A program made the position numbers and the translations under genes. 32,911 bases of DNA from Streptosporangiales bacterium (GTDB lineage: Bacteria; Actinomycetota; Actinomycetes; Streptosporangiales; WHST01): the NCBI GenBank assembly GCA_009379825.1, contig WHTA01000063.1, positions 1 to 32,911 of the forward strand, given 5' to 3'. The notes under the pieces were generated by a model. It saw nothing but the letters and a program-made list of their open reading frames with translations, was not told the DNA's origin and did no database searches. Below are positions 30,923 to 32,613 of the stretch, piece after piece (the stretch's first letter is position 1; each line of letters begins with the position of its first letter).

Positions 30923-31999
30923 TCAGCTCGGCCGGCCCGCGCCCGCCCACTCGCTCTGGTAGTAGCTGGTGTTGATGCTCGACACCTTCACCGGCTCGCC
31001 GCTGTTCGAGGCGTGGACCATCTTCCCGCCGCCGGCGTAGATGCCGACGTGGTGCACCGGGCTGCCGAAGAAGAGCAGGTCGCCTGGCTGGATCTGGGAC
31101 CTCGACACCGCGGGGACGCTCTGTTGCTGCTGCTGCGACGAGTGCGGCAGCGACGCGCCGCCCTGGCGCCACGCCATCATGGTCAGGCCGGAGCAGTCGA
31201 ACGAGTCAGGGCCTTCCCCGCCCCACTTGTACGGCTTGCCGACCTGGGCGTAGGCGTAATCCAGCACCGCGCCGGCGCGCCCGCTGACCGGTGGCGGGTC
31301 GACATTCGAACGGGTCCGCGAGGTGTCGGTCTGGGCCGCCTGCAGCCGGTCGAGCAGCTGCTTCTGCTCGGCCAGCGCGGAGACGATGGTCTCCTTCTGC
31401 TCGCGCAGCTTCTGCGCGATGGTCTGGCTCTTCTTGGTCGCCTTCGCCGCGATCTTCTTCTGCGACGCGAGCTGCTCGCGTGCCCGCATGAACGCGTCGA
31501 TGCGGTTCTCGTCCTGGCCGGACATCTGGTCCAGGCTCGTCGCCTTGTCGATCAGCTCCTGCGGGGACTTCGAGCTCAGCAGCTGCGCGACGTCGGTGCC
31601 GCCACCGCCGATGTAGGTCGACGCGGCGCGACCGGAGACGGCGGAGCGCAGCCGCTCCACGGCGTCCGCCTGCTTCTTGGTGCGCTTGTTGAGCGCCTTG
31701 AGCTGCTTCTTGCTGCTGGCGAGCTTCGTCTTTGCCGCGGTGAACTCCTCGGTGACCTTCTCGACCTTCACGCCGAGGGACCGGACCTTCTTCTGGACCT
31801 CGTCCATGTCGGGCTCCGCACTGGCCGTGTGCGGAGCCACCACGACGAGCGGCACGAGCAAGGCGAAGGCCGCGAGCATACGCACGGCTACGGTTTTTGC
31901 ACGGGGGCCGAAATGCGCCAAGGCACGAACGATGCGTGCCGATGAGTACCAGTGGTCGTGGCCAGCGGAGACCCGCGGGGGTCTATGCCGTGTCGCCAC
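30923..31999 (-). CDS. NlpC/P60 peptidoglycan endopeptidase
   Basis: Secreted cell-wall hydrolase of 358 aa (RipA/Rv2190c-like) that cuts peptide stems. After a long N-region (VATRHRPPRVSAGHDH) comes a hydrophobic signal (MLAAFALLVPLVVVAPH, cleavage near ASA-EP). Residues about 55-245 form a Lys/Gln-rich coiled coil. The catalytic domain occupies the last 115 residues: DSFDCSGLTMMAW holds the nucleophile Cys, PVHHVGIYAGG the His, and MVHASNSG the third polar residue. The start GTG 31999 is set by GAGGAG (plus-strand 32006-32011) six bases upstream. A cyclic di-AMP riboswitch precedes it, so synthesis is probably tuned to the second messenger. Confidence 0.95.
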   Translation of the reverse strand: MATRHRPPRVSAGHDHWYSSARIVRALAHFGPRAKTVAVRMLAAFALLVPLVVVAPHTASAEPDMDEVQKKVRSLGVKVEKVTEEFTAAKTKLASSKKQLKALNKRTKKQADAVERLRSAVSGRAASTYIGGGGTDVAQLLSSKSPQELIDKATSLDQMSGQDENRIDAFMRAREQLASQKKIAAKATKKSQTIAQKLREQKETIVSALAEQKQLLDRLQAAQTDTSRTRSNVDPPPVSGRAGAVLDYAYAQVGKPYKWGGEGPDSFDCSGLTMMAWRQGGASLPHSSQQQQQSVPAVSRSQIQPGDLLFFGSPVHHVGIYAGGGKMVHASNSGEPVKVSSINTSYYQSEWAGAGRPS

Positions 32000-32025
32000 A
32001 GGCGACTCCTCAATCCACTCTCGGG

Positions 32026-32190
32026 CCGCCTGCCGGGTCAGCTGTCGGGTTCGGGCGGAGATGAGCGCCCTAGGTGCACGCATGCACCATTCACCCCAAG
32101 GGAAGGTGGTTCCCCGGCTCCGTCACCGACTCTGTGGGGACTACGGCGACGAACTCGGCGGGAGCAAGTCGCGCCGCCCGGGGCAGGCGG
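32026..32190 (-). ncRNA. ydaO/yuaA cyclic di-AMP riboswitch
   Basis: Read on the minus strand, the leader has the conserved words of the ydaO class in order: GGGGAACC (32115-32108), GGGTGAA (32096-32090) and GAACCCGACAGCTGACCC (32052-32035). A perfect 9-bp closing stem is formed by CCGCCTGCC (32190-32182) and GGCAGGCGG (32034-32026). This class is known to control cell-wall hydrolase genes in actinobacteria, and the next gene is an NlpC/P60 endopeptidase. The 3' strand of the closing stem can also pair (CAGGCG, 32032-32027) with CGCCTG at the start codon (32004-31999), enclosing the GAGGAG ribosome site in the loop. That suggests translational control. The boundaries follow the stem. Confidence 0.93.
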
Positions 32191-32216
32191 CAGGGGTACG
32201 ACCTTGCTCGAGCCGA

Positions 32217-32246
32217 ACCTTAGTAACCATTCCGTGATGAAGTCAA
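32217..32246 (-). promoter_or_regulatory. Promoter of the riboswitch-NlpC/P60 transcript
   Basis: On the minus strand TTGACT (32246-32241) and TAAGGT (32222-32217) are 18 bases apart. Predicted start near 32210 places the whole riboswitch in the leader, which would be about 210 bases long. Confidence 0.6.
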
Positions 32247-32269
32247 AAGGACCCGCCGCCGCCTTCCTG

Positions 32270-32298
32270 GTGAGCTGTCGCCTGTCGTCGCAGCTCAC
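32270..32298 (-). terminator. Hairpin upstream of the riboswitch promoter
   Basis: gtgagctg and cagctcac pair over 8 bp with a 13-base loop, about 100 bases after the stop of the small Cys-rich gene. It is a possible terminator for that gene. The rest of 32299-32400 shows only a weak 7-bp inverted repeat. Confidence 0.35.
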
Positions 32299-32400
32299 GG
32301 TATGTAGCTCGGTCCGTACCGCCCGACCTCATCCTTGACGGTCGGCACGCCACGAACAGCCACCCCGTATGCACCAGACGTGACCGTCCGCCAGGCCCGG

Positions 32401-32613
32401 TCACCCGATGGCGCGCCGACGCTCGTCGTCGACGACGTCGGTGACGGTCAGTCGTAGTGGCGGCACCAGACCGGACTCCGCTAGCACGCCGAGCGCCGCA
32501 CGCTCGCCGTCGTCGATGTCGACCGCACCCGGCACAGAACCGAGCAGGGTTGTCACGACGCAGTCGCCACACGCGATGTCACGCATCTCACAGCGGTCAC
32601 AGTCGATCAGCAC
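32401..32613 (-). CDS. Small Cys-rich conserved protein
   Basis: Protein of 70 aa opening LIDCDRCEMRDIACGDCVV, with four cysteines in two CxxC pairs that could bind zinc. It continues with an acidic VDIDDGERAALGVLAESGLVPPLRL. Similar small proteins lie between YacP-like NYN genes and NlpC/P60 genes in other actinobacteria; no function is known. The start is GTG 32613 with GAGGGAG about 7 bases upstream. Confidence 0.82.
   Translation of the reverse strand: MLIDCDRCEMRDIACGDCVVTTLLGSVPGAVDIDDGERAALGVLAESGLVPPLRLTVTDVVDDERRRAIG

Follow-up and report, generated by a model that had tools for sequence, protein, structure and literature searches.

The window analysed here is the whole of contig WHTA01000063.1 (32,911 nt; assembly GCA_009379825.1) from a Streptosporangiales bacterium of WHST01, in which a c-di-AMP riboswitch precedes a cell-wall hydrolase gene; all features of the window described below lie on its minus strand. 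The gene (30923..31999) begins with a GTG codon at 31999-31997 and encodes a 358-aa NlpC/P60 protein (PF00877, E 4.2e-30), the N-terminus of which appears signal-peptide-like. Since the named relatives of this protein (10 loci) all belong to Actinomycetota, the host is taken to be an actinobacterium, and since the genome encodes a diadenylate cyclase domain (PF02457), the ligand c-di-AMP can be made. The same genome encodes a second NlpC/P60 homologue (G000:C9:111188-112201; 47% identical over residues 36-357) and has a single riboswitch match, so that this riboswitch controls just one of the two. A promoter-like TTGACT-N18-TAAGGT (32217..32246) can be read from the sequence as a candidate promoter; both congeners (L002 and L003) have the same -35 element and a -10 element of the form TANNNT, and a consensus scan gave no promoter match at the riboswitch locus. 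The transcript would be expected to start close to 32209. Upstream of the leader lies a 70-aa frame (32613-32401) with four cysteines close to its start, for which a Pfam search returned no match.

The aptamer and its upstream leader

The c-di-AMP (ydaO/yuaA) riboswitch aptamer, RF00379, was located by cmscan at 32158-32011 (32011..32158; 83 bits compared to a gathering score of 38, E 4.3e-18), where it matches the full length of the model (positions 1-134) and ends 11 nt before the GTG start of the NlpC/P60 gene. It is the sole RNA family match listed for the window. The riboswitch class named in an earlier sequence-only reading of this DNA is thereby confirmed and, judged by sequence, the aptamer is clearly an ordinary RF00379 c-di-AMP riboswitch, that is, a known switch with a known kind of target. 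RF00379 was found in 3/3 genomes of the family, in 250 of the 345 genomes of the order (none was found in the other 95) and in 112 of 148 genomes drawn from the class. Its copy number varies widely, from one in the genome of the window to 13 in another genome (G024).

The Rfam model and the congeners place the P1 stem between a 5' arm, GTCGCC (32145..32150; Rfam core CGCC, 32148-32145), and a 3' arm, GGCGGC (32025..32030; Rfam core GGCG, 32030-32027). The 4-bp core is kept in all three congeners, with one G-U pair in L003, and the stem extended to 6 bp contains a G-G mismatch in L002. The sequence-only reading had drawn a 9-bp closing stem between CCGCCTGCC (32190-32182) and GGCAGGCGG (32034-32026). 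This complementarity is real (10 bp with a one-base extension) and was equalled in 19/2000 shuffles; as an aptamer stem we rejected it, because Rfam draws P1 at another position and the upstream strand forms part of the 5' arm of a hairpin predicted in the leader upstream of the aptamer (32162..32209). Among the three congeners two pairs of the leader hairpin are changed on both sides, both in L002, one in the outer and one in the inner helix, and the compensated pair of the inner helix falls on the base where the proposed closing stem breaks in L002. The comparative case against the closing stem rests on this one L002 base, as L003 keeps all nine pairs, one of them as G-U. The leader hairpin is itself imperfect in both congeners: two outer pairs and one inner pair are broken in L003, and in L002 one middle pair is broken and three outer pairs lie beyond the aligned stretch.

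Candidate pairings around the start codon

The region between P1 and the gene has three candidate pairings, which we compared within the genus and across actinobacterial loci. Automatic start assignment gave no start at 48 of 268 loci; the counts were restricted to loci that had a start no more than 36 nt past P1 and the usual P1 strand, so that 179 remained, and near-duplicate loci were thinned at 70-80% identity. Tests of the alternative pair described next also required at least 20 nt. Loci that were added later are excluded from the start-hairpin, CGCC and alternative-pair counts and included in the loop-tail count (201 representatives). With respect to starts, 17 of the 25 pattern candidates listed for the order (26 were found) combine a ribosome site, ordinary spacing, a CTG codon and a signal-peptide-like frame (L063, L065, L073, L106, L118, L119, L130, L138, L140, L141, L143, L148, L152, L153, L160, L162 and L163). 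Their frames are LSTT..LSRL..GG.ALT-like and ATG, GTG and TTG are absent close by, which suggests that a family of putatively secreted proteins under riboswitch control begins translation at CTG.

The sequence-only reading centred on an alternative pair in which the 3' strand of P1 takes up the start region. Indeed, GCAGGCGGC (32033-32025), of which the P1 3' arm (32030-32025) forms a part, is complementary to GTCGCCTGT (31998..32006) over 9 bp, 2 of them G-U. The ribosome site GAGGAG (32006..32011) lies inside the loop so formed but for its final G, with which the pairing begins. The pairing is thus present largely as described; its strength is unusual but not beyond chance, as 33/2000 dinucleotide shuffles made from the start region equalled it, and so did 38/3464 19-nt tiles of the window. 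All three congeners keep the alternative pair (L002 and L003 with three G-U pairs each, L002 with a 1-nt bulge), without any two-sided change among them, the sole change yielding U-G. Across 88 actinobacterial representatives the mean energy of the pair was -4.13 compared to -3.99 (sd 0.20) for swapped partners, and 77/300 swaps reached the native value, in a test limited by the near-invariant P1 strand. When these loci were split, the 44 mostly of the order gave no signal (430/500 shuffles reached the native value), and the 44 drawn chiefly from elsewhere in the class (L184 on, a group that also contains some loci of the order) beat the shuffles (0/500) and hardly the swaps (31/500). An exact 8-bp version of the pair (GTAGGCGG/CCGCCTAC), which differs from the window on both sides, occurs at the locus L207; its extra pairs are absent in the family members L209, L235, L275, L295, L305 and L308. 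The covariation of CAGGCG with CGCCTG that had been suggested as a check on the pairing therefore failed to appear, with nothing compensated in the genus and no excess over swaps in the 88 loci. P1-strand exchange as a general actinobacterial mechanism was dropped on the same lack of signal over swaps.

The same start region can also fold on itself, as a hairpin GTCGCC-TGT-GGCGAC (31992..32006; -8.3 kcal/mol) that would enclose the GTG start. Its stem is identical in 3/3 congeners, with a loop of 3 or 4 nt, and no base pair changes within the genus (three congeners); a hairpin as strong was met in 63/2000 shuffles and in 184/2350 28-nt tiles of the window. The CGCC that precedes the NTGGCG start is a copy of the P1 5' arm. 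Where a riboswitch locus has its start within 36 nt, the 14 nt before that start contain CGCC in 15/29 loci with NTGGCG starts compared to 11/113 others (Fisher p 2.5e-6, with loci treated as independent and kinship uncorrected); before this count the starts of L202, L204, L235 and L246 were shifted to the nearest TGGCG. For comparison, two congeneric genomes gave a list of 150 GGAG-N6-11-GTGGCG stretches, which are candidate starts, and a count by eye puts CGCC in between in 11 of them. Since P1 offers GGCG at most loci and CGCC is enriched only where the start offers it, the association points to the start hairpin. In relatives with CGCC and GTGGCG the intervening bases vary (TTC, AGC, TTCC, ACCC, GGGC), as in a hairpin loop, and between distant loci the outer pair differs on both sides, being T-A in the window and A-T in L184 and L211. 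Over 125 representatives the native start hairpins had a mean of -1.74 compared to -1.37 (sd 0.16) for swaps, with 3/200 swaps reaching the native value, and hairpins at -4 or below were found in 22 of the 125 and in 11% of the swaps. This excess is a modest signal, carried by a subset of loci. Codon usage bears on the same stretch: in codons 1-10 of the three congeners shared residues are codon-identical in 24/28 comparisons, and elsewhere in 353/537. Amino-acid identity over these codons is 93%, compared to 43-62% elsewhere, and N-termini of the HR.P type, spotted by eye, turn up again in distant relatives, so the N-terminal protein sequence may be conserved for itself. A second possible hairpin, AGACCC-CCGC-GGGTCT (31969..31984), lies within the coding region; it counts 6 bp in the window and 5 in each of L002 and L003. 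No title or abstract took the start hairpin as its topic in the literature searched, which left most subscription journals outside its scope.

The third pairing joins a loop of the aptamer to the tail before the gene. We placed the pseudoknot loop, GCTCATCTCC (32057..32066), by analogy with the ydaO sequence in PMC5393176; the available text of that paper gives ydaO a pseudoknot of 5 or 6 bp and, by our own reading, the ydaO sequence printed there shows loop-tail complementarity. The best ungapped match in the tail of the window is weak: GAGTG (32016..32020) with CGCTC (32067-32063), at -4.3 kcal/mol, set against a strong 8-bp match in L003. Across 201 representatives the loop-tail energy was -6.58 compared to -5.08 (sd 0.15) with swapped partners, and 0/200 swaps reached the native value. 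Of the 161 loci that combine a loop-tail match with a start no further than 36 nt away, 75 have the pseudoknot strand as the only site-like sequence, 66 have a separate ribosome site, and 20 have neither; the window, with its weak strand at 32020-32016, belongs to the kind with a separate site. On these comparisons, predicted loop-tail pairing adjoining or on the ribosome site is the general pattern across RF00379 loci. In one genus (g40; L018-L045 and L194) the aptamer is directly followed in 28/29 loci by a short frame, which is 10-26 codons long (often 16, and resembling MHQRVVPPDRVLTAAR) and uses the pseudoknot strand as its ribosome site; its stop falls, at many of these loci, within a GGCCGCC..TGAGCGGCC hairpin, and a long frame starts 51-132 nt later. 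Thirteen sixteen-codon copies showed mismatch of 0.29, 0.16 and 0.22 at positions 1, 2 and 3, with no coding constraint seen. The short frame is possibly a riboswitch-gated leader peptide.

Sign and mechanism of the switch

Folding calculations gave no consistent answer as to which state is open for initiation. At one leader length the lowest-energy predicted fold is the alternative pair, which reaches 0.94 in a piece taken from the aptamer on; with the whole leader and 3 nt added at the 3' end, the fold flips to the start hairpin (0.88, compared to 0.08 for the alternative pair), and in L002 and L003 the alternative pair stands at 0.00 and 0.03. The start hairpin, without P1 being forced, is predicted at 0.88 in the window, 0.11 in L002 and 0.95 in L003, and with P1 forced at 0.19, 0.93 and 0.01, respectively. 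Opening the ribosome footprint costs 12.5 kcal/mol in the tail alone, 15.9 kcal/mol when only the P1 strand is exposed and 12.2 kcal/mol with 150 nt upstream. Overall, the folding energies leave the sign unsettled and partly contradict every simple model, including the one that we favour. We consequently dropped them as a source for the sign, three extra nucleotides being enough to alter the preferred fold, and because they support no model consistently we lean on the measured relatives, which are OFF switches.

Our leading reading, which we put at a little short of an even chance, is that the riboswitch lowers translation of the NlpC/P60 cell-wall hydrolase at high c-di-AMP. Such an OFF switch at the level of translation would work by docking adjoining the ribosome site, with the start hairpin perhaps as a helper. 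Once c-di-AMP is bound, P1 would make up, together with the loop-tail pseudoknot, a compact body ending a few bases before GAGGAG, and the unclaimed GTCGCC strand could close over the GTG start, leading to poor initiation. In the ligand-free RNA the loose P1 3' strand could take GTCGCC, so that the start hairpin would be opened and most of the ribosome site left in the loop. The alternative pair would then mark the ligand-free state as a helper of initiation and not as a block, which is the weakest step. The 83-bit RF00379 match, the NlpC/P60 gene directly downstream, the diadenylate cyclase domain and the lack of a terminator-like site speak for an OFF switch acting on translation, as does the measured C. 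glutamicum nlpC riboswitch, by analogy with which we favour this sign. The loop-tail pattern across loci, the start hairpin kept in 3/3 congeners, the tie of CGCC to NTGGCG starts and the modest excess of native hairpins over swaps also count in its favour. Several observations speak against this model: forcing P1 yields the start hairpin in L002 and hardly in the window or L003; it is already formed without forcing in the window and L003; the footprint is about as costly to open in the tail alone as with 150 nt upstream, and costlier when only the P1 strand is exposed; the loop-tail match of the window is weak; hairpins of the strength of the start hairpin are common in the window, and none of its base pairs changes within the genus; the CGCC association is uncorrected for kinship; and codons 1-10 are also conserved as protein.

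The same parts can be put together in other ways. Docking by itself would suffice if the bound aptamer and its pseudoknot crowd or cover the ribosome site, with the start hairpin either damping initiation at all times or arising by coincidence where GC-rich sequence meets a conserved N-terminus. We regard this as an unlikely but serious alternative, since loop-tail pairing is the best-supported tail interaction, hairpins that match the start hairpin in strength occur commonly in the window, and a review, in its available text, places ydaO among the switches with a ribosome site hidden by a docked platform (PMC10907184). It fits less well with the ribosome site of the window lying downstream of a weak loop-tail match, with the tie of CGCC to NTGGCG starts and with the codon identity over codons 1-10. 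Somewhat less probable is transcription attenuation, in which the ligand would stop RNA polymerase in the leader, as the accessible text on Streptomyces rpfA reports in the form of early termination (PMC10117811). In its favour, the Streptomyces leader is likewise described, in the part of PMC9960051 available, as having no canonical terminator; against it, in the window the aptamer match leaves just 11 nt before the start codon, and a scan of 31780-32420 found 0 intrinsic-terminator-like sites, so that an intrinsic terminator between aptamer and gene was rejected.

The ON switch proposed in the sequence-only reading, whereby the P1 3' strand blocks the start without ligand and c-di-AMP locks P1 to free it, we consider the most doubtful of these accounts. 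The alternative pair does exist, is the lowest-energy fold at one leader length and dominates when the folded piece begins at the aptamer; exposing only the P1 strand makes the footprint costlier to open than in the tail alone, and L207 carries an exact 8-bp version of the pair. Against this, the pair collapses when 3 nt are added and is close to absent in both congeners, neither the genus (no compensatory change) nor the 88 loci (no excess over swaps) support it, and the family members of L207 named above do not keep the extra pairs. The claim that ligand frees the start also overlooks the GTCGCC-TGT-GGCGAC hairpin, which can close once the P1 strand is withdrawn, so that a start let go by P1 would not necessarily become accessible. 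The doubt about the sign voiced in that reading was well placed: in the available text of both PMC9960051 and PMC10117811 the measured relatives are OFF switches, and the sign it had proposed is probably reversed. A further reading, which we consider improbable, would make the CGCC before NTGGCG starts a three-way switch strand in a subset of Actinomycetes, held by the P1 3' strand without ligand and by the start hairpin once c-di-AMP locks P1. If true, c-di-AMP riboswitches would have a translational expression platform separate from the one in which a pseudoknot occludes the ribosome site.

Relation to known c-di-AMP riboswitches

Compared to the RF00379 family (ydaO/yuaA leader), the window agrees in aptamer sequence and structure along the entire model and in having a cell-wall hydrolase as target; the search flags no aptamer difference, and the lineage of the window adds the leader hairpin upstream and the start hairpin downstream. 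The closest counterpart is the nlpC riboswitch of Corynebacterium glutamicum, for which the available text of PMC9960051 reports that high c-di-AMP lowers the protein and not the transcript. Both riboswitches precede an NlpC/P60 peptidase gene and, as far as that text describes the C. glutamicum leader, both do so without a canonical terminator. They differ in that for C. glutamicum the paper puts forward a CTCC/GGAG pairing that involves the ribosome site, whereas the start codon in the window may also form a hairpin of its own. In the same text the authors leave open how actinobacterial c-di-AMP riboswitches reach the ribosome. The rpfA riboswitch of Streptomyces is likewise of the c-di-AMP class and precedes a cell-wall hydrolase gene; the hydrolase is of another type, and the available text of PMC10117811 reports early transcription termination. 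Finally, in interdomain-docking riboswitches (preQ1-III and cobalamin, with ydaO also named in the accessible part of PMC10907184), a separate bound aptamer docks on a downstream platform and hides the ribosome site, whereas in the window the site lies beside the docked strand and not clearly inside it. Overall, the comparison yields two separable predictions for these riboswitches, one in which the pseudoknot strand would be the ribosome site and one in which a start hairpin would be built on NTGGCG.
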